Source: Streptomyces sp. TLI_171
GTDB taxonomy: Bacteria > Actinomycetota > Actinomycetes > Streptomycetales > Streptomycetaceae
Assembly: GCF_003610255.1 (NCBI RefSeq)
Contig: NZ_RAPS01000001.1
Coordinates: forward strand, 248,001-312,000
DNA length: 64,000 bases
Direction of reading: 5' to 3'
The notes under the pieces are model-generated. The model searched no databases. It was not told where the DNA came from and worked only from the letters and a program-made list of their open reading frames with translations. This document shows positions 253-13,683 of the stretch, in pieces (position 1 is the first letter of the stretch; each line of letters begins with the position of its first letter). Both the position numbers and the translations under genes were made by a program.

Positions 253-458
253 CGGGCGTCCGCGCGGGCGGCGAGGCTGCGGCGCAGGCCGAGCGGGCGG
301 ATGTCGGGCCAGACCCGGTCGACGTGCGCCGAGCATTCGGCCTCGGTGCCGGCGAAGCCCTCGGCGCGCCAGCCGGCGGGCAGCGGGGCGCCTTCGGGCC
401 ACAGGGCGTGCTGTTCCTCGTCGTTGACGGCGACCAGGTAGCGGATCTCGGTGCTCAT
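249..458 (-). CDS. MbtH-like NRPS accessory protein
   Basis: A 69-residue protein with the MbtH family pattern: an N-terminal strand ([15 protein letters not shown]), PAGW near residue 28, a conserved Cys, and the C-terminal [10 protein letters not shown] segment that matches the family W-T-D-x-R-P-x-S-L-R. MbtH-like proteins bind adenylation domains as chaperones and activators, so this one probably serves the three A domains in the operon. It overlaps the upstream NRPS by four bases (455-458) and the downstream carrier protein by four (249-252), both ATGA junctions. The family has no enzymatic activity of its own. Confidence 0.93.
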
Positions 459-3445
459 CGGGCTGCTCCTTGCAGGGCGCGGACGGCGGCTGCGACGCCG
501 CGGGCCGTGGGTTCGTCGAAGAAGACGTCCAGCGGGACGTCGACGCTGAGGGTGCGGGAGATGCGGGCGGCCATCGCGGTGATGGTCAGCGAGTGGCCGC
601 CGAGGTCGAACAGGTCCTCGTCGGGGCCGAGGTCGTCCAGTTCGAGGACTTCGGACCAGATGGCGAGCACCGCGGCGAGCGTCGCGTCCTCCGACCGGTC
701 GGCGAGGTCGGCGGCGGCGGGCGCGGGTTCGGCGCGGGCGGGGGCGGGTTGGGGCAGCGCGGCCCGGTCGAGCTTGCCGTTGGGGGTGAGCGGGAACGCG
801 TCCAGCGCCAGGTAGGCGGTGGGCAGCACGGCGGCGGGGAGGGTTTCGGCGAGGTGGGCGCGCAGGTCGGCGGCGGTGGGCGCGGCTCCGGTCGGAACGA
901 GGTAGGCGACCAGCTGGTCCGTCCCGTGCAGGGCGGCGGCGGCCTGGGCGACGGCCGGGTGGGTGGCGAGGCGGGCCTCGATCTCGCCGAGTTCGATGCG
1001 GTGGCCGCGGATCTTGACCTGGCTGTCGGAGCGCCCGAGGTACTCCAGCGCGCCGCCGGGCGAGCGCCGCGCCAGGTCGCCGGTGCGGTACATCCGGGAT
1101 CCCGCGGGGCCGTAGGGGTCGGGCAGGAAGCGGCTCGCGGTGAGGCCGGGGCGGCCGAGGTAGCCGTGGGCGACGCCGTCGCCGGCCAGGTAGAGCTCGC
1201 CCGGGATGCCGTACGGGACGGGCCGCAGCCGCTCGTCGAGGAGGTAGAGGCGGGTGTTGTCCAGGGGCCGGCCGAGGGTGACGGCGCGGTCCGGGCCGAG
1301 CGCGGGGTCGGCGCAGCTGGACCAGATGGTGGTCTCGGTGGGCCCGTACACGTTGACCAGGCGGGCGGTGGCGGCCGTCAGGGCGGCGGCGAGCGGGGCG
1401 GGGAGCGCTTCGCCGCCGGTGAGGGCGGTGAGGCGGGTGCCGGTGAGGCCGGCGTCGAGCAGCAGCCGCCAGCCGCTGGGGGTGGCCTGGACGTGGGTGA
1501 CCTGCTGACGGCGAATCAGTTCCAGCAGGGCGGGTCCGTCGCGGTGGGCGTCCTCGGGGGTGAGGACGACGCGGCCGCCCGTGACGAGCGGAAGCAGGAG
1601 TTCGACGGCGGAGATGTCGAAGGACAGCGAGGTGAGGGCGAGCCAGCGGTCGGCCGGGGTGGCGCCGAGCCGGTCACGCAGGCTGCCGAGCACGTTGGCC
1701 AGCGCGGAGTGCGGGATCTCGACGCCCTTGGGGCGGCCGGTGGAGCCGGAGGTGTACAGCACGTAGGCGGGCAGCGCGGGGTGCGGCGCCGGGGGCAGCG
1801 GCGGGGTGTCCGCGCTGCGGGGCGCCAGGTCGGCGGGCGTCAGGTCGCCGGGCTGCTCGGGGCTGCGGGTGATCCGCAGGGTGAGGGCGGCGTCCGTGCG
1901 CAGGTGGGCCAGGCGCTCGGCGGGGTAGCCGGGGTCGAGCGGGAGGTAGGCGGCGCCGGTGGCCATGGTGGCGAGGACGGCGACGAGCTGGTCGAGTCCG
2001 CGGGACAGTTCGACGCCGACCAGTTCGCCGGGGCCGGCGCCGCGCTCGGCGAGGGCCGCGGCAGCATGGGCGACCAGGCGGGCCAGGTCCCGGTAGGTGA
2101 GGGGTGTGTCGTCGGCGACGGCGGCGACCGCTTCGGGGCGTTCGGCGGCGCGGGCGGCGAACAGGGCGGGGACGGTCGTCGCGGCCAGCGCGGGGCGCGG
2201 CTCGGGTGCGGCGAGTTGGGCGTCGTGTTCGTCGGGTGTCAGCAGGCCGAGTTCGCCGAGCGGGGTGTCGGGGGCGGCGAGGGCGGAGTCCAGCAGGGTC
2301 AGGTAGTGACGGGCGATCAGTTCGGCGGCCTCCGCCGCGAGGGCGTCCGTGCGGTACTGCAGGCTGCCGAGGACCTCATCGCCGCAGTCGACGAGTTGGA
2401 GGTGCAGCAGGTTGCGGGCCGTTCCGGCGAAGCCGATCCAGCCGACCTCGGCCGTGACCGGCCCGAAGTCGGGTGCGGCGCCCTGCGGGCGGCGGCGGTA
2501 GCTGATCGACAGCGGGGTGAGCGCCGTGCGGGGCGTCAGGCCGGGGACGGCGCGGCCCAGCGGCACGGAGCGGTGGGCGTACAGGGCGCGGAGTTCGGCG
2601 CGGACGGTGCGGGCCCGGTCGGCGAACGTTCCGGTGGGCGTACCGGCGGACAGCGGCAGTTCGTTGACGGCCGGGCCGATGGCGACGGGTTCGCCGGGGC
2701 GGCGCTGGGAGAGTTCGACGGCGGTGGTGGGGGCCGGGTTGCCGTAGCGGGCCAGCAGGGTGTGCCAGGCGGCGGTGAGCAGTTCGAAGCGGGTGACGCC
2801 GAGGGTCCGGGCGGTGTCGGCGCACCGGCGGCCGTCGATCCGGAAGGCGTGTTCGGCGCCGGGGGCGGCGACCGTTCCGTGGTCGGGCAGCGGGGCGAGG
2901 CCGGGCAGCACGGGCAGGCCGGGTTCCTGCCAGCGGTCGGCCCAGTACGCGGCGGCGGCCGCGACGTCCGCCCGAGGGGTGGTCAGCGGTGCGGCGGGGG
3001 CGAGCGGTTCGCCCCGGTAGGCGGCGGCCAGGTCGGTGACCAGGCGTTCCTTGGACTCGCCGTCGAAGACCAGGTGGTGGGCGGTCACCAGCAGCAGGTG
3101 TCGATCGGGGGCGCAGCGGTACAGGGTGAACCGGCAGAGCGGGCCGGCCGGGTCGAACGGGGTGGCGCGGTCGGCGGCGAGCAGCCGGTCGAGGTCGGCT
3201 GCGGCGCACTCGACCCGGCGCGGCGCGGCCACGGTCGCGGTGGGCGCGGCGGTGCCGTCGGGGGCGGTCTGGGTGGCCAGCACGGGGTGCCGGGCGACGA
3301 CGGCCGCGCAGGCCCGGTCGAGGGCGGCGGCGTCGAGCGGGCCGGTGAGGTCGAGGGTGACGGCGAGGTGGTAGGCGGCGCCGGTGTCGAGCGTGCGCTC
3401 GGTGAGCCAGATGCCGTGCTGGGCGGGGGTGAGCGGGGTGGTCAT
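455..3445 (-). CDS. Nonribosomal peptide synthetase, C-A-T, predicted glycine module
   Basis: A 996-residue single-module NRPS. The condensation domain (about residues 5-430) has the intact active-site motif HHLVFDG near residue 123. The adenylation domain (about 440-910) shows [29 protein letters not shown] and LTPNGKLDR. The thiolation domain has DLGGHSL near residue 948. Aligning the pocket by eye to the GrsA positions gives D-I-V-Q-L-G-V-I-W-K, two changes from the glycine code DILQLGLIWK, so glycine is predicted. There is no epimerisation or thioesterase domain. The ATG at 3445 overlaps the ligase stop (3442-3445, ATGA). It probably takes an upstream acyl or peptidyl chain and passes it on; its place in the assembly order is inferred. 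Confidence 0.94.
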
Positions 3446-4935
3446 GGGGTGGCCTCGGGGGTGTCTGGGGTGAGGGCGCGGCGCAGTTCGCGTTTGAGGA
3501 CCTTGCCGCCCTCGTTGCGCGGCAGGGTGTCGCGGAAGTGCACGGTGGCGGGGAGCTCGTGGACGGCGAGCCGGTCGAGCAGGAAGGTCCGCAGGTCGGT
3601 CGCGGTCAGCTCGCCGTCGGGGACGACGACGGCGGTGACGACGCTGCCGAGCACGGGGTGCGGCACGCCGAACGCGGCGGCGTCCAGCACCTGCGGGTGG
3701 GCGTGCAGGGCGTTCTCGACCTGAAGGGTGGACACCTTGTGGGCCCCGGACTTGACCACGTCGCGTTCCCGGTCGAGCAGGTGCAGGAAGCCGTCGGCGT
3801 CGACCCGGCCCAGGTCGCCCATCCGCACCCAGCGGCCCTGGAACACCGCGCCGTCGCGCTCCCCCAGGTAGGCGCGCGGGGCGGCGGGCGAGCGCAGCCA
3901 CAGCTCACCGGGCTCGCCCGGTGCGACCGGCCGCCCGTCGGCGTCGGTGATGCGCAGGTCGGCCAGGGACGCGGGCCGGCCCGGGGAGTCCGGGCGGGCC
4001 GGGTCGAACAGCAGGGTGATCTGTGCGGGCGCCGCCTCGGTGGAGGTGTAGTAGTTGACGACCTGTGCGGCGGGGAAGGCCCGGCACAGGCCGAGCGCGA
4101 CCGGTTGCGGCAGCGCGGCGGCGGTCGAGCCGATCAGTCGCACGGAGTCCGGTCCGCCGCTGTCGGCGGCGGCGGCGAGCGCCCGGGAGGCGAGCAGTTC
4201 GATGGCGGTCGCGGGCACCAGGAACACGCTGCCGACGGCGTGTTCGGTGATCAGGCGGACGAACCGGGCGGGGGTGAACTGCGGGGCGGTGACGCAGGCG
4301 GCGTGCGCGTTCAGCGCGTTGACCAGCATGGTCTGCCCGGCGTTGGTGCCGACCGGGAAGGCGTGCAGGAAGGTCCGGGAGTGCCGCAGCGGTCGCCGCC
4401 GCTCGTCGAGGGTGCAGCCGTGCACCAGGTTGGCGTGCCGGGCGGTGACGCCCTTGGGGGCGCCGGTCGTCCCGGAGGTGTAGAGGATCTGCGCCGGGGC
4501 CTGCGGGTCGGGCTCCGGGAGGCCGGGGTCGGCGGGGTGGCCCTCGGCGGCGGCCCCGGTGAGCGTCCGGACGTCCGCCGGGACGCCCGCCGGCACAGCG
4601 CCGCCGTGCAGCAGCAGGCGCGCCCCGGAGTCGGCGAGGGCGTGCGCGACGCCGGCGGGCGAGCTGCGGTCGGACAGCGGCACGGCCACCGCCCCGGCCC
4701 GCAGCACGCCGAGGAACGCCACCGCGTACTCCGCCCAGCGGTCGGTGCCGAAGCACAGGCCGACCCGGTCGCCGTCCCGGACGCCGTCGGCGCGCAGCGC
4801 GGCGGCCAGCGCGCCGGAGCGGGCCTGCCAGGCGGCGAAGTCGAGCCGGGCGGGGCCGCAGACGAGCGCCGTGCGGTCGCCGTGCGCGGCGGCGCGGTGC
4901 GCGAGCAGGGCGGGCAGGGTGGCGGGGGCGCTCAT
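3442..4935 (-). CDS. Stand-alone acyl/aryl adenylate-forming ligase
   Basis: A 497-residue class I adenylate-forming enzyme (ANL superfamily) without a carrier domain. The P-loop [11 protein letters not shown] lies near residue 150, followed by YYTSTEAAP (A5-like), the aspartate of [10 protein letters not shown], and a C-terminal lysine in [11 protein letters not shown]. The middle segment resembles acyl-CoA ligases rather than amino acid A domains. It sits inside the NRPS operon with ATGA overlaps at both ends, which suggests that it activates a carboxylic acid (fatty or aromatic) and loads the small carrier protein at 1-252 as the N-cap of the peptide. The substrate cannot be read from the sequence. 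Confidence 0.88.
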
Positions 4936-7900
4936 GCGGCGCCCGTCCCGGTCCGGCGGGCGGCGGCGGCCCGGGCCCGCTCGCGCAGGCCCACCAGGTC
5001 GTCGGGTTCGGCGTCGGGCACGTCCCGGTCGAAGCGGGCGAGGACGGGCAGGCGCAGCCCGAGGGCGACCAGGCCGAGCATGGCGGCGGCGAACAGCAGG
5101 TACATCAGGGCGATGCCGCGCCCGGGCCCGGTGCCGATCAGCGGTCCGAAGACGGGGGCGAGCGCGCCGCCGGGCTCCATCAGCGGGCCGAACACGGCGG
5201 AGCCGACGGGGGCGACGACGCCGTGGCCGAGCGGCAGGGTGGACCAGGCGACCAGGGTGTTCAGGGCGAACACCCGGCCGTGGAAGCGCTGCGCCACCTT
5301 GACCTGGACGATGGTCGAGTAGATGCCGTTGACCAGGGCGAGGGCGAAGGACATCCCGAAGGCCCCGGCGGCGACCACCCACAGGTTGGCCCGCAGCCCT
5401 TCGACGGCGCCGGCCAGCGCGAGCACGGCGGCCAGCGCCAGCATGCCGCGCAGCCGGTGCCGGCGGGGGCCGCCCCAGAAGCCCATCGCGATGCCGCCGA
5501 GGACGGCTCCCGCGCCGGCGGCGACCGCGACCCGGGCGGCGCCGCCGAGGTCGTCGAAGGACAGCACGAGGGGGGTGGTGAGCAGGAACAGCGGCGACAG
5601 GAAGACGTTCAGCCCGGCGAACCAGAGCAGCATCGCCCGGAAGCCGCGGTGGCGCCAGGAGTGCGCGAGGCCGTGCCTGATCTCCTCGACCAGCGACTCG
5701 CGCCGGGTCCAGGGCAGGGTCTTCGGGAAGCGCACCAGCAGCAGGACGGCGACGGCGACGGCGTAGGAGGCCACGTCGATGATCAGGATGCCCTGCAGAT
5801 CGATCGCCGCGAGCAGCGCGACGGCGGCCAGCGGGACGACGAACTGGGCGGTGCCGAAGGCGAGTTGGACGATCCCGTTGGCGTGGCCGAGGTGCCGCTT
5901 GGGCACCAGTTGCGGGACGGCGGAGGCGTACGCCAGGCGTTGGAAGGTGAGCGCCACGGACAGCACGCCGAGCAGCACGTACACCTCCCAGGACTGCAGG
6001 TGCCCGGTGAGCAGCAGCGCCAGCAGTCCGGCCTGGGTGGCTCCGGCCGCGAGGTCGCCGAGCAGCATCACCCGGCGGCGATCGCAGCGGTCGACCAGGG
6101 CCCCGGCGAGCGGCCCGATCAGGATGCCGGGGAGCATCGCGACGACGGCGTACAGCGCGAACCGGGCCATCGATCCGGTGTGCAGCAGGATCCAGATCGG
6201 CAGCGCGAACTCGGTGAGCGCGGAGCCGGTGATGGAGGCCAGTTGGCCGCCGACGACCCAGAGGAAGCGGCCCATGCCGGGTTGCGGGCCGTCGGCGGCG
6301 GGGGCGGCGCCGTCCGGGTCGGCCTCGGTGGCGGACGCCTCGCCGTGGAACCACCAGGAGTTCTCCGGGTCCCGCGCGGGCAGGGTGTCGGTGGCGCCGT
6401 CGAGGACGGCGCGGTGCACGGTGGTGACGGCCTGCGCGGTCTCGGTGGCCCGGTGCGCGATGAAGAAGTGCCCGCCCTCGTCCAGGACGGCGACCGCGGA
6501 GCGTTCGGCCAGCAGCAGCCACTCGCGGTAGCGCTCCTGGAAGAAGTCGGCAGCCGGGTCCTTGTCGCCGACCAGCGAGACGACGGGGGCCCGCAGCCGG
6601 GGCGCGCCGGCCTCGGTCTCGGCGAGCGCCCGGGTGAAGTACTCCTCGGCGGCGCGGGTGTCGCGCCGCATGTTGCCGATGACGAACCTGACCTGTTCCT
6701 CGTCGAGTTCGGAGGTGTCGACGCCCATGCCGGTCAGCCAGTTGGCGTAGGCGCGGTCGCCGACCAGCGCGTCCAGGGCGGCGACCTTCCCGAGCGCGGT
6801 GAGCAGCTTGCTCCTGGGCCGGGCGAACGGGAACTGGGCGCCCGCGTACACGGCTTCGAGTTCGCGGCCGGAGGCTTCCAGCAGGCGGGAGACCGCGACG
6901 GCGAGGGCGGTGCCGACGGCGCAGTGCCCGTAGACGACGAGCGGGCCGTCGACCTTCTCGCGCACCTCGGCGGCGACGGCCTCGGCGAGTTCGTCGAACT
7001 CGAGGCGCCGTTCGGTGACGCCCAGGTCGTGGCCGGGGACGGCGACGGACCACAGTTCGACGTCCGGCGGCAGGGCGTCCGCGACGGGCTGGTAGACGAC
7101 GGCGCTGCCGCCGCCGTAGGGCACGCAGACCAGGGTGAGGCTGCGGCGGGCGGCGGGGACGGCGCGGGTGAGGCGGTGCAGCAGGGCGCGCGGGCCGCGC
7201 TGCTCGTCGTCCTGGGCGGCGAGGGCGGCGAGTTCGCCGACGGTGCGGTGGGTGAAGAGGTCCATCACGCTGACCGGGCGGGCGCCGATCGCGGTGAGCC
7301 GGTTGCGGGCCTTGGCGACGACCTGGGTGGCGAGCAGCGAGTGCCCGCCGAGGTCGAAGAAGTTCTCGTCGGTGCCGACTCCGGGCAGGTCCAGGACCTC
7401 GGCCCAGATCTCGGCGAGCACGGTCTCGGCGGGGGTGGCGGGCTTGCGCGCGCCGTCGGGGCGGTGGATCTGCGGTGCGGGCAGCGCCCGCCGGTCGAGT
7501 TTGCCGTTGGGGCTGAGCGGCAGCGCGGGCAGCACGGTGAACGCGGCCGGCACCTGGTGGTCGGGGAGGCTGCGCCGCAGGGTGGCGCGCAGCGCCGCCG
7601 GGTCGGGCTCCTCGGCGCCGGCGGCGACGACCAGGTAGCCGACCAGCCGGTCCTCGCGCAGGACGACGGCGGCGTCGGCGATCCCGGGCTGGGCGCGCAG
7701 CGCGGCCTCGGTCTCGCCGGGTTCGATCCGCAGGCCGCGCAGTTTGACCTGCCCGTCGATCCGCCCGAGGTGTTCCAGGGTGCCGTCGGGTCGGCGGCGG
7801 GCCAGGTCGCCGGTGCGGTACAGCCGGGAGCCGGGCGGGCCGTAGGGGTCGGGGACGAAGCGGGCGGCGGTGAGTCCGGGGCGGCGGTGGTAGCCGAGGG

Positions 7901-10298
7901 CGACCGCGGCGCCGCCGATGTGCAGTTCGCCGGGGGCGCCGGGGGCGACCGGGCGCAGCCGGGCGTCGAGCACGTACAGCCGGGTGTTGTCGATGGGGAG
8001 CCCGATCGGGACGGTGTCCAGCGGCCCGGTGCACTCCCAGGAGGACACGTCGACGGCGGCCTCGGTGGGCCCGTACAGGTTGGCCAGGCGCAGCCCGGGC
8101 AGTCGGGTGGTCAGTTCGCGGGCGGCGTCCGGGGGGAGCGCCTCGCCGCTGCAGATCACCCGGCGCAGGGTGGTGCAGCGCTCCACGCCGTCCTCGGTGA
8201 GGAAGACCCTGAGCATGGCGGGCACGAAGTGGGCGACGGTCACGCCGGCGGAGACGATCAGGTCGCGCAGGTAGCCGCTGTCCTTCTGCCCGCCGGGCTT
8301 GGCGAGCACCAGGCGCGCTCCGGTGGTCAGCGGCCAGAAGAACTCCCACACGGACACGTCGAAGCCGGTGGGCGTCTTCTGCAGGACGGCGTCCTCGGGG
8401 CCGATCCGGTAGGCGTCCTGCATCCACTGCAGGCGGTTGGCGATCGCCCGGTGGGTGTTCGGCACGCCCTTGGGGCGACCGGTGGAGCCGGAGGTGTAGA
8501 TGACGTACGCGGTGTCCTCGGGGGTCGGCCCGGCCGGGCGGGTCCGGGCCCGGGGCCACTCCGCGGGGTCGTCCAGCAGCAGGACGCGGGCCGCGCAGCC
8601 TTCGGGCACGGGCAGCCTGCGCTGGGTCAGCAGCACGGGGGCGTCGCTGTCCGCGAGCAGGAAGGCGAGGCGCTCGGCCGGGTAGTCGGGCTCCAGCGGG
8701 GTGTAGGCGGCTCCGCTGCGCAGCACGCCGAGCAGTCCGGCGACGAGTTCGGGCGAGCGTTCCGCGCTGACGGCGACCAGACTGCCGGGGCCGACGCCCT
8801 CGGCGGCCAGCCGGGCGGCGATCCGCCCGGCCTGCTCGTCGAGTTGACGGTACGTCAGGGCGGGTCGGCCTTCCACGGCGACGGCGACCGCGTCGGGGGT
8901 GCGGGCGGTCTGCTCGGCGACCAGGGCGCACAGCGTGGTGGCGGGGCGGTCGACCGCGGTGTCGTTGAACTGCGCGGTCTCGAAGGCCAGTTCTTCGTCG
9001 GTGAGGGTGTCGAGGGCGGACAGCGGGGTGTCCGGTGCGTCCGCGACGGCGGCCAGCAGCCGGCCCAGCTGGTCGGCGACCCGGGCGATGTCCTCCTCGG
9101 CGTACAGGTCGGTGTTGTAGTTGAACGACCCGTACAGCCCCTCGGGCCACTCCTGCAGGAACAGCTCCAGGTCGAACCGGGTGCCGGAGGCCCGGACGCC
9201 GAACGGCTCGACGGCGAGCGGGAGTTCGCCTGCGGCTTCGCGCTGGGTGGCGTAGTTCTGCACCGCCAGGACGGCCTGGAAGACCGGCGGCCGGGACACG
9301 TCGCGGGGCCAGTTCAGCTCGCTCACCAGTTGGGCGAACGGCAGGTCCTGGTGCCCGTAGGCGCTCAGGCAGGTCTCCCGGGTGCGGGCGACCAGGTCGG
9401 CGAAGCTGGGGTCGCCGTGGAGCCGCGCGGGGAGCGCGACGACGTTGACGAACATGCCGACCAGCGGCTCCAGTTCGGCCTCCGGTCGGCCCGCGACGGG
9501 CGAGCCCACGGCGAAGTCGGTGCGGCCGCTGCAGCGCGCCAGCAGCAGCTGGAAGGCCGCCATCAGCACCATGTACACGGTCGCGTCGTGGCGGCGTCCC
9601 AGCCGGGTGAGCCGGTCGAGCAGGTCCCGGTCGACCGCGAAGGCGTGGCCGGCGCCGTCGAAGGTCTGGCGCGGCGGGCGCGGCCGAGAGAAGGCGAGTT
9701 CGAGCGGCTCCACCCCGGCGAGTTCGGCGCGCCAGTGCGCGACCTCGGCGGCCAGCCGCTCGCCGCTCAGCACCTCGCGCTGCCAGATCGCGAAGTCGCC
9801 GTACTGGACCGGCAGTTCGGGCAGCGGGTCGGGCTCGCCCGCGACCCGGGCGGCGTAGCCCCGCAGCACCTCGCCGAGCAGCACCTCGCTGGACCAGCCG
9901 TCGCTGACGCTGTGGTGCACCACCAGCAGCAGCACGTGGTCGTCGGCGGCGAGCCGGATCAGTTCGGCCCGCAGCAGCGGCCCGTGCTCCAGGTCGAACG
10001 GCACGGCGGAGGCGGCGTCCACGATCCGTTCGGCGGCGGCTTCGTCGGCGGCCTCGGTGACGGTCAGCGCGGCCGGGCCCGGCGGGTCGACGACCAGCAG
10101 CGGGCGTCCGTCCTCGGTCGCCGGGTAGCGGGAGCGCAGCGTCTCGTGCCGGGCCACGCTCGCGTCCAGCGCGGCCCGCAGCGCCTCGGTGTCCAGCGGG
10201 CCGCGCAGCCGGCGGACCACGGGGATGTTGTACGCGGAGGTGCCCGGCGCGAACTGCTCCATGAACCAGAGGCGTTCCTGCGCGAAGGACAGCGGCAC
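4932..10298 (-). CDS. NRPS C-A-T-TE fused to a C-terminal MFS transporter
   Basis: A 1788-residue polypeptide. The condensation domain has HHSVSDG near residue 128. The A domain has [11 protein letters not shown] near 603, and its pocket D-V-W-H-I-S-L-V-D-K is close to the serine code DVWHLSLIDK. The T domain has DLGGHSL near 983. An alpha/beta-hydrolase thioesterase (about 1050-1290) has GHCAVG with Cys1126 as apparent nucleophile, plus GDKD and EGGHFF for Asp and His. A multi-pass MFS domain resembling EntS-like exporters (about 1338-1760) follows in the same frame without a stop. The GTG used here has no obvious ribosome binding site. The reading frame stays open upstream through a conserved LSAAKRELLRRRL segment to an out-of-frame ATG at 10438, so the N-terminus probably lies there if a one-base error near 10416 is corrected. 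The stop overlaps the downstream ligase ATG. Confidence 0.92.
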   Translation of the reverse strand: MPLSFAQERLWFMEQFAPGTSAYNIPVVRRLRGPLDTEALRAALDASVARHETLRSRYPATEDGRPLLVVDPPGPAALTVTEAADEAAAERIVDAASAVPFDLEHGPLLRAELIRLAADDHVLLLVVHHSVSDGWSSEVLLGEVLRGYAARVAGEPDPLPELPVQYGDFAIWQREVLSGERLAAEVAHWRAELAGVEPLELAFSRPRPPRQTFDGAGHAFAVDRDLLDRLTRLGRRHDATVYMVLMAAFQLLLARCSGRTDFAVGSPVAGRPEAELEPLVGMFVNVVALPARLHGDPSFADLVARTRETCLSAYGHQDLPFAQLVSELNWPRDVSRPPVFQAVLAVQNYATQREAAGELPLAVEPFGVRASGTRFDLELFLQEWPEGLYGSFNYNTDLYAEEDIARVADQLGRLLAAVADAPDTPLSALDTLTDEELAFETAQFNDTAVDRPATTLCALVAEQTARTPDAVAVAVEGRPALTYRQLDEQAGRIAARLAAEGVGPGSLVAVSAERSPELVAGLLGVLRSGAAYTPLEPDYPAERLAFLLADSDAPVLLTQRRLPVPEGCAARVLLLDDPAEWPRARTRPAGPTPEDTAYVIYTSGSTGRPKGVPNTHRAIANRLQWMQDAYRIGPEDAVLQKTPTGFDVSVWEFFWPLTTGARLVLAKPGGQKDSGYLRDLIVSAGVTVAHFVPAMLRVFLTEDGVERCTTLRRVICSGEALPPDAARELTTRLPGLRLANLYGPTEAAVDVSSWECTGPLDTVPIGLPIDNTRLYVLDARLRPVAPGAPGELHIGGAAVALGYHRRPGLTAARFVPDPYGPPGSRLYRTGDLARRRPDGTLEHLGRIDGQVKLRGLRIEPGETEAALRAQPGIADAAVVLREDRLVGYLVVAAGAEEPDPAALRATLRRSLPDHQVPAAFTVLPALPLSPNGKLDRRALPAPQIHRPDGARKPATPAETVLAEIWAEVLDLPGVGTDENFFDLGGHSLLATQVVAKARNRLTAIGARPVSVMDLFTHRTVGELAALAAQDDEQRGPRALLHRLTRAVPAARRSLTLVCVPYGGGSAVVYQPVADALPPDVELWSVAVPGHDLGVTERRLEFDELAEAVAAEVREKVDGPLVVYGHCAVGTALAVAVSRLLEASGRELEAVYAGAQFPFARPRSKLLTALGKVAALDALVGDRAYANWLTGMGVDTSELDEEQVRFVIGNMRRDTRAAEEYFTRALAETEAGAPRLRAPVVSLVGDKDPAADFFQERYREWLLLAERSAVAVLDEGGHFFIAHRATETAQAVTTVHRAVLDGATDTLPARDPENSWWFHGEASATEADPDGAAPAADGPQPGMGRFLWVVGGQLASITGSALTEFALPIWILLHTGSMARFALYAVVAMLPGILIGPLAGALVDRCDRRRVMLLGDLAAGATQAGLLALLLTGHLQSWEVYVLLGVLSVALTFQRLAYASAVPQLVPKRHLGHANGIVQLAFGTAQFVVPLAAVALLAAIDLQGILIIDVASYAVAVAVLLLVRFPKTLPWTRRESLVEEIRHGLAHSWRHRGFRAMLLWFAGLNVFLSPLFLLTTPLVLSFDDLGGAARVAVAAGAGAVLGGIAMGFWGGPRRHRLRGMLALAAVLALAGAVEGLRANLWVVAAGAFGMSFALALVNGIYSTIVQVKVAQRFHGRVFALNTLVAWSTLPLGHGVVAPVGSAVFGPLMEPGGALAPVFGPLIGTGPGRGIALMYLLFAAAMLGLVALGLRLPVLARFDRDVPDAEPDDLVGLRERARAAAARRTGTGAA

Positions 10299-10434
10299 GG
10301 GGGCGTCGGGGGCGCGCCGGGGGACGGCGGCGGCGCGGGTGGCGGGGCGGGCGGCCAGCCGGCGTCTGAGGAGTTCGCGCTTGGCGGCGGACAGGCCGGC
10401 CTTCGCGGGGGCGTCGGGAGGGTGGTGTCGGAGC

Positions 10435-13400
10435 TCATGACGGGGAGGTGCTTCCTTCCAGGGCGTCCGCGGCGGCCAGCAGTTCCGCCGCGGCGTCGTC
10501 GGACAGGTTGTCGATCTCGGCGACCAGCGCGTCCTCGACGGCCCCCGCGAAGGCGGCCACGGTGCGGTGGGTGAACAGGGCGCGCAGCGGGACGGCCAGG
10601 TCGATCGCGGCGCGGATCCGGGCGACCACCCGGGTGGCGAGCAGCGAGTGCCCGCCGAGGTCGAAGAAGTCGTCGTGCGCCCCGACGGAGTCGACGCCCA
10701 GCACCTCCTGCCAGACCTCCGCCACCAGTTCCTCCGCCTCGGTCCGCGGCGGCACGTGCGGCGCCCGGGGCAGCGCGTCGGCGTCGGGCTCGGGGAGGGC
10801 GCGGCGGTCCAGCTTGCCGTTGGGGGTGAGCGGCAGCGCCGCCAGCGGGACGATCGCGCCGGGCACGGCGTGCGCGGGCAGCTCCTCGGCGAGGGCGGCC
10901 CGCAGCGCCGCCGGGTCGAGGTCCGCGCCCACCGCGTAGGCGACCAGGGTGTCCCCGCGCGCGACCACCACCGCCTGGGCGACGCCGGGGCGGGCGAGCA
11001 GCGCGGACTCCACCTCGCCGGGCTCGATCCGGTAGCCCCGGACCTTCACCTGGTCGTCGATCCGGCCGAGGAACTCCAGTGCGCCGTCCGGGCGTCGGCG
11101 CACCAGGTCGCCGGTGCGGTAGCGGCGCGCGCCCGGCGGACCGTCCGGGTCGGGCACGAAGGCCCGCGCCGTGGCCCCGGGCCGGCCGAGGTAACCGTCC
11201 GTCACGCCGAGCCCGCCGATGACCAGTTCGCCCGGGCTGCCGGGCGGCACGGGCCCGCCGTGGCGGTCCAGCACCGCGATCGTGGTGCCGCCGATCGGCC
11301 GGCCGATCGGCGGGCGCCGCCGCGCGTCCTGCGCGCCTAGGTCGGCGGTGGTCGCGATGATCGCGGTCTCGGTGGGCCCGTAGGAGTTGACCAGCCGGAC
11401 CCGGTCGCCGAACCGCGCCCGCCACGCGGCGACGGCCTCCGGGCGGACCTGGTCGGCGCCCAGCACCAGCAGCCGCAGCCCGTCCGGCCAGGGGGTCTCG
11501 GCCAGGTCGGCGACCAGGTGGTGCCAGTACGGGGTGGGGAGGTCGAGGACCGTCACCCCGGCCGCGTACGGCTCGGCGAGCTGGTCGGGCAGCGCCGCGC
11601 CGGGGCGGGCGGTGACCAGGACGGCCCCGGCGGCCAGCGCGGGGAAGATCTCCTCGGCGCTGGTGTCGAAGGACAGCGTCGCGTACTGCAGCACCCGGTC
11701 GGACTCGGTGAGGCCGTAGCCCTCGCGCATCCAGGCGACCCGGGCGGCGAGCGCCCGGTGCGGGACCAGTACGCCCTTGGGGGTGCCGGTGGAGCCGGAG
11801 GTGTAGATCAGGTAGGCGGGGTCCTCGCCCGTGGCGGGGGTTGCGACCGGCACGGGCGCGTCCGCCGCCGTGGCCGGGACCCCGACCGGCGCGGGCGCGT
11901 CCGCCGCCCCCGGCACGGCGAGCACCGGACGGTCCGTCACCAGGCCCTCGGGCAGGGCGCCGTCCGGGGTGACCAGCGCGGCGGCGCCGCTGTCGGCGAG
12001 CATGAACGCCAGCCTGGCCGCCGGGTAGTCGGCGTCCAGCGGGACGTAGCCGGCGCCCAGCCGCCAGGCCGCGAGCATGGCGGCCACGGCGCGCGGGCCG
12101 CGCGGCAGGCAGAGCGCCACCAGGTCGCCGCGGCGGACGCCGTGGTCGGCGAGCCGGGCGGCGAGCGCCCGGGAGGCGTCGGCGAGGCCGCGGCGGGTGA
12201 GCGTCTCCTCGGGGCCGACCACCGCGGGGGCGTCCGGGTCGGCGAGCGCGGCGCGGTCGACGGCCGCCAGCACGGTGTCCGGTGCGGCGGGCAGCGCAGG
12301 CCCCTCGGACTCGGCCGCGAGCAGCGCCCGTTCGGCCTCCTCCAGCAGGGGCAGCCGGTGCACGGGGGCGGCCGGGTCGGCGAGGGCGGCCCGCAGCAGC
12401 GTCTCGAACCGGGCGGCGAAGGCCGCGGCCGTGGCGGCGTCCAGCAGGTCGGTCCGGTAGCCGAAGACGGCGTGCAGGTCGTCGCCGTCCGGCCGGACGT
12501 CCAGGCCGAGTTCGAACTTCGCGGCGGTGTGGCCGCCGTCGACCTCGGTGCAGCGCAGGTCGGCGAAGGGCTCCTCGCCGAGCGCGCCGCCGGTGTGGGT
12601 GTGCACGGCCAGCATGGTCTGGAAGACGGGCGTCCGCCCGGGGTCGCGGTCCAGCCGCAGTTCCTCGGTGAGCCGCTCGAACGGGACCCGGCGGTGGCTC
12701 AGCGCGCGCATCCACTCGCCCCGGACGGCGCGCAGCAGCGTGTCGAAGGCGGGCGCCCCGGAGAAGTCGGCGCGCAGCACCAGCGCCGAGGAGCAGTACC
12801 CGACCAGGGCTTCGCTCTGCACGGTCTCCCGGGCGGCCGTCGGCACGCCGACGCAGAAGTCGTCCTGGCCGGTGCACCGGTGCAGCAGGGTCTGGTAGGC
12901 GGCGGCGAGCACCATGAACGGCGTCACCCGGCGCGCCCGGGCGAAGGCTTCCAGCTCGGGCCGCACCCCGCGCAGCACCCGGGTGTGGTACGCCCCGCCG
13001 CTGCGCGGCTCGGCGGGCCGGGGCCGGTCGAGCGGCAGCTCCAGCGGGGGCGCGCCGGCGAGGCGCTCCCGCCAGTAGGCGAGTGCCTGCGCGGCCTCCG
13101 GGCCGTCCAGCCAGGCCCGTTCGGCGGCGGCGTGCGCCAAGTAGGATGGCGGTGGCGGGAGTTCGGCGCTCCGGCCGGCGCGGTGCGCGGCGTAGTGGGT
13201 GGCGAGTTCGGCGCGCAGCAGTCCCAGCGTCCAGCCGTCGGCGGCGATGTGGTGCAGCACCAGGCACAGCAGGTGCTCCTCGTCCCCGGTGCGCAGCAGC
13301 GCGGCGCGCAGCAGCGGGCCCGCGGCCAGGTCGAACCCGGCGTTGGTCAACCCGGCGAGCGCCGCGCCGACCTGGTCCGGCGTCCGGGTCCGCAGGTCGC

Positions 13401-13683
13401 GCTCGTCCAGCCGGGCGGGCCCGGGCGGGTCGACGACCACCGACGGACGCCCGTCCGCGGCCGGGAAGCGGCTGCGGAGGGCTTCGTGCCGGGCCACGAC
13501 CGCGTCGAGCGCCGACCGGAGGGCCGCCGGGTCGAGCGGGCCGGTGAGCCGCAGCACGAACGGGATGTTGTACGAGGGGTCCCCCGGCTCCAGTTGGTCG
13601 AGGAACCAGAGGCGTTCCTGTCCCACCGACAGCACCGCGGTGTCCGTGGCCACCGCCTCCGGTCCGGTGTTCCCGGTAGACAT
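10435..13683 (-). CDS. Nonribosomal peptide synthetase, C-A-T, unassigned substrate
   Basis: A 1082-residue single-module NRPS and the first gene of the operon. The condensation domain begins with LSVGQERLWFLDQ and has HHIAADG near residue 146. The A domain has YTSGSTGTPKG near 628, NSYGPTETA, YRTGDLVRR and LTPNGKLDR; the T domain has DLGGHSL near 1011. The pocket read by eye is D-T-E-D-L-L-S-I-I-K, which I cannot match to a known code; two acidic residues (239 and 278) could suit a basic side chain, but that is inference. A run rich in Ala, Pro and Val interrupts the region just before A3 (about residues 595-625). The ATG at 13683 is preceded by GGGAG nine bases away. The stop overlaps an ATG at 10438 (ATGA). 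Confidence 0.94.
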   Translation of the reverse strand: MSTGNTGPEAVATDTAVLSVGQERLWFLDQLEPGDPSYNIPFVLRLTGPLDPAALRSALDAVVARHEALRSRFPAADGRPSVVVDPPGPARLDERDLRTRTPDQVGAALAGLTNAGFDLAAGPLLRAALLRTGDEEHLLCLVLHHIAADGWTLGLLRAELATHYAAHRAGRSAELPPPPSYLAHAAAERAWLDGPEAAQALAYWRERLAGAPPLELPLDRPRPAEPRSGGAYHTRVLRGVRPELEAFARARRVTPFMVLAAAYQTLLHRCTGQDDFCVGVPTAARETVQSEALVGYCSSALVLRADFSGAPAFDTLLRAVRGEWMRALSHRRVPFERLTEELRLDRDPGRTPVFQTMLAVHTHTGGALGEEPFADLRCTEVDGGHTAAKFELGLDVRPDGDDLHAVFGYRTDLLDAATAAAFAARFETLLRAALADPAAPVHRLPLLEEAERALLAAESEGPALPAAPDTVLAAVDRAALADPDAPAVVGPEETLTRRGLADASRALAARLADHGVRRGDLVALCLPRGPRAVAAMLAAWRLGAGYVPLDADYPAARLAFMLADSGAAALVTPDGALPEGLVTDRPVLAVPGAADAPAPVGVPATAADAPVPVATPATGEDPAYLIYTSGSTGTPKGVLVPHRALAARVAWMREGYGLTESDRVLQYATLSFDTSAEEIFPALAAGAVLVTARPGAALPDQLAEPYAAGVTVLDLPTPYWHHLVADLAETPWPDGLRLLVLGADQVRPEAVAAWRARFGDRVRLVNSYGPTETAIIATTADLGAQDARRRPPIGRPIGGTTIAVLDRHGGPVPPGSPGELVIGGLGVTDGYLGRPGATARAFVPDPDGPPGARRYRTGDLVRRRPDGALEFLGRIDDQVKVRGYRIEPGEVESALLARPGVAQAVVVARGDTLVAYAVGADLDPAALRAALAEELPAHAVPGAIVPLAALPLTPNGKLDRRALPEPDADALPRAPHVPPRTEAEELVAEVWQEVLGVDSVGAHDDFFDLGGHSLLATRVVARIRAAIDLAVPLRALFTHRTVAAFAGAVEDALVAEIDNLSDDAAAELLAAADALEGSTSPS

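Follow-up and report, generated by a model that had tools for sequence, protein, structure and literature searches.

Bacterial assembly lines are usually seen as soluble enzymes whose product later meets a separate exporter. The locus described here raises the question of whether synthesis, release and export can be carried by one polypeptide, and of what such an arrangement would do. In the window (the whole 64,000-nucleotide stretch of Streptomyces sp. TLI_171 that was analysed), an open reading frame on the minus strand (4932-10298) runs without internal stops for 1788 residues from a listed GTG, the real start probably lying upstream. It encodes a condensation (C) domain (residues 2-436; 8991-10295; Pfam Condensation), an adenylation (A) domain (residues 461-939; 7482-8918; code DVWHISLVDK) in which Pfam AMP-binding covers 461-804 and the C-terminal part of AMP-binding 862-933, a carrier (T/PCP) domain (residues 961-1026; 7221-7418; PP-binding), a thioesterase (TE) domain (residues 1055-1290; 6429-7136) and an MFS transporter domain with a C-terminal tail (4935-6275; MFS_1 at residues 1351-1683), all on the minus strand. 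Condensation, AMP-binding and its C-terminal part, PP-binding, Thioesterase and MFS_1 each score above the Pfam curated cut-off. The C, A, T and TE domains follow one another on a single chain, as in an NRPS termination module. An earlier note on this DNA had proposed a C-A-T-TE module and an MFS transporter in one polypeptide; the single open frame and the Pfam domains bear this out, and its coordinates, 4932-10298, are exact, to which the strand, absent there, can now be added.

The fused gene is probably the terminal module of a conserved acyl-peptide NRPS operon, in which release is covalently tied to export via an MFS on the same chain, and probably arose by fusion of an NRPS gene with an exporter gene. 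The upstream C-A-T protein and the C-A(Ser)-T module would build the chain end of a short, probably acylated peptide; the cysteine thioesterase would take the chain off the carrier and release it, and the MFS, of H+-antiporter/Mef-like type, would export the product from the same polypeptide. An exporter gene standing alone just downstream of an NRPS gene would have lost the separating stop and start, and the fused form would then have passed, as one unit, into many actinobacterial clusters that differ in substrate. Within this explanation we infer both the identity of the peptide and that the MFS exports the operon's own product. The enzyme would sit at the membrane, with the released product concentrated at the transporter mouth; the tethering of release to the membrane, already suggested in the earlier note, would follow from the MFS fold as modelled. 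It is plausible that release is coupled to export; the proximity of TE and MFS may be loose because the linker is flexible and fast-evolving. The cell may thus make, release and pump out its product from one machine, and a conserved family with TE and exporter on one chain makes the coupling directly testable.

Homologues in which a TE is followed by an MFS in one gene do occur in the genomes of dozens of other soil bacteria related to this strain. In Streptomycetaceae, Micromonosporaceae and Streptosporangiaceae together, verification gave 65 distinct fused loci: 63 after removal of duplicates, plus those on an Embleya plasmid and on the Streptomyces clavuligerus megaplasmid (L108 and L109); the plasmid matches carry no annotation in PLSDB. 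All 63 distinct homologues keep TE and MFS in one open frame. The same genome holds a second full-length fused copy, 55% identical (G000:C1:5742114-5747501; L002, L058); its cluster is a different one and also encodes E1/E2 2-oxoacid dehydrogenase, two glycosyltransferases and carrier proteins. Within the genus, 27 of 70 genomes matched the TE-MFS segment at 1e-60, and in nearly all of these a single open frame covers the two domains; within the family, 62 of 395 genomes gave a strong MFS match, mostly inside long open frames. The architecture was checked locus by locus, since a match alone in GC-rich DNA is no proof of fusion. Scanning the GTDB species genomes turned up 33 named loci, distributed over Streptomyces, Kitasatospora, Embleya, Dactylosporangium, Micromonospora, Plantactinospora, Nonomuraea and two metagenome bins of Streptosporangiaceae. 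A strong MFS match was rare in a phylum-wide sample: only 3 of 396 genomes gave one, namely the genome from which the window comes and two others that encode the MFS separately. The fusion is thus common in a few families of actinobacteria rather than general.

Between close pairs, dN/dS is 0.07-0.20 for the MFS versus 0.07-0.23 for the A domain and 0.03-0.44 for the TE, with MFS and TE values mostly at 0.03-0.26. Judged by these ratios, MFS and TE are both under purifying selection, and their pairwise distances correlate (r = 0.91). The TE-MFS fusion is real, and under-described rather than an accident. A full-text literature search found no description of an NRPS-MFS fusion; the NCBI pipeline names some products as NRPS and MFS transporter combined, and the architecture may already be known at the level of annotation. 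Its signature, a GHC thioesterase followed by an MFS, marks dozens of uncharacterised clusters for mining.

The operon around the fused gene lies on the same minus strand. It contains an upstream C-A-T NRPS gene (10435-13683; 1082 aa; code DTEDVGSIIK), an acyl-CoA/AMP ligase (3442-4935; 497 aa), which is a conserved operon member, a further C-A-T NRPS gene (455-3445; 996 aa; code DIVQLGVIWK), an MbtH-like protein (249-458) and an acyl/peptidyl carrier protein (1-252); beyond the window it goes on to encode a lone C-domain protein and then a DMFA2_C protein (L056:12004-8745). This order (C-A-T, fused C-A-T-TE-MFS, acyl ligase, C-A-T, MbtH, carrier protein, lone C-domain protein, DMFA2_C protein) is conserved in many relatives. 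The DMFA2_C (dimethylformamidase-like) gene at the operon end (L056:8745-10634, minus) was found in 12 of the 23 close relatives' loci, whose flanks are partly cut off. No second transporter is conserved in the operon among the relatives' loci; a stand-alone MFS gene near the operon (L056:6404-7696, minus) has no counterpart in them. Open frames of ~2900 aa in close relatives were considered as a larger fusion and rejected, as the upstream stretch is another frame of the preceding NRPS gene, GC-rich and domain-free, and a separate gene lies there.

Adenylation codes were extracted against GrsA. By the known code table, that of the fused module (DVWHISLVDK) is predicted to specify serine. We take the upstream C-A-T code, DTEDVGSIIK, to stand for a basic residue and the downstream one, DIVQLGVIWK, for glycine, both as leads only. 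Two relatives (L023 and L025) show a reduced operon, with only the C-A-T gene (NRPS1), the fused gene and MbtH recognised in the stretch, which suggests an X-Ser core as the minimum product. The terminal codes vary among fused clades (Ser, Asp-like, Orn-like and Gly-like), which would demand a transporter that handles more than one peptide. A siderophore cluster, suggested by the Ser, Orn-like and Asp-like codes and by the idea of an EntS-like exporter, was considered but not adopted: among the conserved operon members, no gene for a hydroxylase, for DHB or for uptake was recognised.

TE and MFS are joined by a flexible linker rich in Pro, Ala and Asp (6276-6335, minus), of low model confidence and variable length, which lies about where the earlier note had quoted it. 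The linker is free of stops in 63 of 63 distinct fused loci. Its GC content at codon positions 1, 2 and 3 is 0.79, 0.68 and 0.93, position 3 being the highest in 61 of 63, and its dN/dS between close pairs is 0.20-1.06. On such substitution patterns, the linker is a tolerated spacer between two constrained domains. An AlphaFold2 run on the TE-linker-MFS segment (pLDDT 86.6, pTM 0.83) gave a confident TE and a multi-helix MFS connected by a flexible low-confidence stretch, and hence no TE-MFS interface is readable from the model. Behind the TE the order is an extra strand with the sequence WWFHGEAS, a stretch of <50 confidence (288-295) and TM1. The WWFHGEAS motif (6333-6356, minus) is predicted to add a beta strand behind the TE. 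Most of the main clade has retained it, with WR instead in two members, and it is absent from L047 and from the ten distant fused members. This tryptophan-rich, lineage-conserved strand had been missed before.

The join had been described as showing neither a frameshift nor a start signal. Frameshift and ribosome-binding site are indeed absent, yet an in-frame ATG exists (6273-6275, minus; 'GMGRF') at the start of TM helix 1. Most members have it, aligned with the initial Met of stand-alone relatives, and from this placement it is likely a relic of the ancestral start codon. Such an ATG, next to a flexible and rapidly evolving linker, would fit a fusion that is only genetic, with internal initiation at ATG 6275 or proteolysis of the linker freeing a separate MFS that works as in unfused clusters. 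We consider this unlikely: the ATG lacks a preceding ribosome-binding site in the window and almost everywhere else, about a quarter of the members have another residue in place of the Met, and the frame has been retained throughout despite very large changes in linker length (23-144 residues). Moreover, three members (L029, L094 and L095) contain no ATG, GTG or TTG anywhere between the end of the TE and the 40th residue of the MFS and must therefore be translated through. The earlier note had named, as evidence against a fusion, homologues that are always separate genes with an internal start here; instead, the homologues are fused and these three have no usable start. In the other members, some internal initiation may occur to a limited extent.

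In the C-terminal domain, MFS_1 scores 83 bits against a cut-off of 33.4, and motif A is present (G1399..D1403-R1404..R1407-R1408; 6104-6075, minus), its residues G360, D364, R365, R368 and R369 (alignment numbering) being invariant in a 53-sequence alignment; fold and motif together identify an MFS transporter. Foldseek gave MdfA as the best MFS match, with VMAT2 also a fold neighbour, while a PDB sequence search with the MFS part gave no match up to E = 1. The fused MFS stays under every curated NCBIfam cut-off: it scores 180.2 bits with the H+ antiporter family TIGR00900 (cut-off 319.6), 99 bits with macrolide-efflux Mef(B), under its cut-off, and 41.9 bits with EntS (equivalog cut-off 324). 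The earlier label of 'EntS-like' does not hold as given, as the scores favour TIGR00900 and Mef(B) over EntS. EntS resembles the present case in being an MFS exporter of an NRPS product, but is encoded by a separate gene. The N-terminus of known MFS proteins is cytoplasmic, and the topology is compatible with the fusion because the NRPS lies on that N-terminal side.

The same likeness to the drug-efflux families Mef and TIGR00900 would suit an MFS that serves mainly as a membrane anchor or as a self-resistance pump, expelling product that re-enters the cell rather than accepting fresh peptide. The predicted structure, with no TE-MFS interface, and the differing terminal substrates among clades are in line with this. 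However, motif A and a purifying selection on the pore domain as strong as that on the synthetase go beyond what a bare anchor would need, and no other exporter is conserved in the operon; we therefore give the anchor or resistance function a low probability. Export of fresh product by the fused MFS remains the explanation that we prefer.

The releasing enzyme is a cysteine thioesterase. Its catalytic triad consists of Cys1126 (6923-6921), Asp1247 (6560-6558) and His1277 (6470-6468), all minus, with the elbow GHCAVG. The nucleophile is Cys in all 63 fused TEs and Ser in none; Cys87, Asp208 and His238 (alignment numbering) are invariant in the 53-sequence alignment, where the earlier Asp position (position I) of the fused TEs is Gly-Ala/Gly. 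Cys, His and an Asp at position II, with no Asp at position I, characterise the ObiF/SulM-type Cys-TEs; neither the Cys nucleophile nor the ObiF/SulM-position Asp had been noticed before. The ObiF TE, with a Cys nucleophile and the later-position Asp, closes a beta-lactone (PMC6668435), and the SulM TE, with the same two features, a beta-lactam (PMC11298585). ObiF1 and SulM TE are among the closest solved structures by sequence and are the best Foldseek TE matches. All are terminal NRPS domains with a Cys nucleophile, a later (RifR-like) Asp and Gly where EntF has Asp. However, ObiF runs on into MbtH (and an AAr domain) and has no transporter, SulM is not described with one, and the elbow of the main fused clade, as of most fused TEs, is GHC-x-x-G, one residue longer than the GxCxG of ObiF and SulM. 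The genus also contains Cys-TE NRPS genes that lack a fused MFS (L111-L117); Cys-TEs therefore form the broader class, of which those fused to an MFS are one branch. The family thus ties a less common class of TE, whose two best-studied members make strained rings, to dedicated export.

It is doubtful whether the Cys-TE closes a reactive warhead, which in the Ser-terminated clade might be a beta-lactone derived from serine, and delivers it straight into the cavity of the fused MFS. If so, the reactive product would not be free in the cytoplasm and the fusion itself would be a mechanism of self-protection. Beta-lactone formation is not to be assumed family-wide, because terminal codes elsewhere are Asp-like, Orn-like or Gly-like.

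As for how a termination module and its exporter came to share a chain, the unfused MFS most closely related to the fused ones are encoded separately, in most cases within NRPS neighbourhoods (L098, L100, L101, L102, L103 and L107), in agreement with the earlier statement that the exporter is normally a gene of its own. One stretch (L099) holds an NRPS ending in a Cys-TE together with a separate MFS; two actinobacterial unfused relatives (L105 and L106) have no adjacent NRPS. In Trichormus variabilis (AVA_RS27930/AVA_RS27925), a homologous MFS (39% identity) lies on the same strand directly downstream of an NRPS, but the two are separate genes, 14 bases apart, and comparison found no Cys-TE at the end of that NRPS. 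Because the closest unfused MFS mostly adjoin NRPS genes, an origin by fusion of neighbouring genes is likely. A single origin is not supported outright: in the MFS tree, which has long branches, the fused members fall into one or two groups, and the fused label requires two changes (bootstrap range 1-2).

Two other systems invite comparison. Epsilon-poly-L-lysine synthetase (Pls) of Streptomycetaceae is a membrane-bound NRPS-like enzyme that makes and excretes its product (PMC8117764). It is comparable in logic, but has six TM helices interleaved with three acetyltransferase-like domains and no C, TE or MFS fold (PMC8117764), all of which are present in the fused protein. In the LplT-Aas fusions, an MFS and an AMP-forming enzyme share one ORF, the unfused forms being neighbouring genes (PMC11416262). 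LplT-Aas (acyl-[ACP]-phospholipid O-acyltransferase; PRK08633, NF006386) is likewise MFS plus AMP-forming enzyme on one chain; however, it serves lysophospholipid uptake and repair, its MFS is N-terminal, and a PlsC acyltransferase stands in place of C-T-TE. The PRK08633 model gives 26.5 bits (MFS part) against a cut-off of 1221, and the domain order differs. The fused protein is a synthetase with a built-in exporter and belongs to neither the LplT-Aas nor the Pls class; such a fusion may be useful for secreting engineered peptides.

The 5' end of the window copy differs from those of its relatives. The listed GTG at 10298 falls at the beginning of the condensation domain, so that the usual N-terminal part is missing. 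In relatives the start is an ATG, mostly 42 to 82 codons upstream of that position (37 in two Dactylosporangium relatives), usually behind a GAAGGA-type site and often overlapping the stop of the upstream gene. In the window the expected start region (10414-10458, minus) has the same elements: a ribosome-binding site, GAAGGAAG, at 10458-10451 precedes an ATG (10438-10436) that overlaps the TGA stop of the upstream gene, and by this comparison the true N-terminus would lie about 47 codons upstream of the listed GTG. Compared with a 90% identical relative (L024), one G fewer is present between 10415 and 10414, which shifts ATG 10438 by one base relative to the reading frame of the module. The window copy lacks a complete N-terminus with an in-frame start, the relatives are intact, and the TLI_171 copy may therefore be broken or mis-assembled; the missing G would be either an assembly indel or a fresh frameshift in this strain. 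That assembly or sequencing joined two genes at the TE-MFS boundary, a suspicion to which this probable indel and broken frames in an orthologue lend some colour, can be dismissed, given that a homologous, unbroken join recurs in independent assemblies, at 65 distinct loci, and in the same-genome paralogue. The N-terminal frame problem leaves that join untouched. The orthologue in question (L104, from another genome of the genus) has frame breaks within C and MFS, which suggest indel errors of assembly or gene decay.
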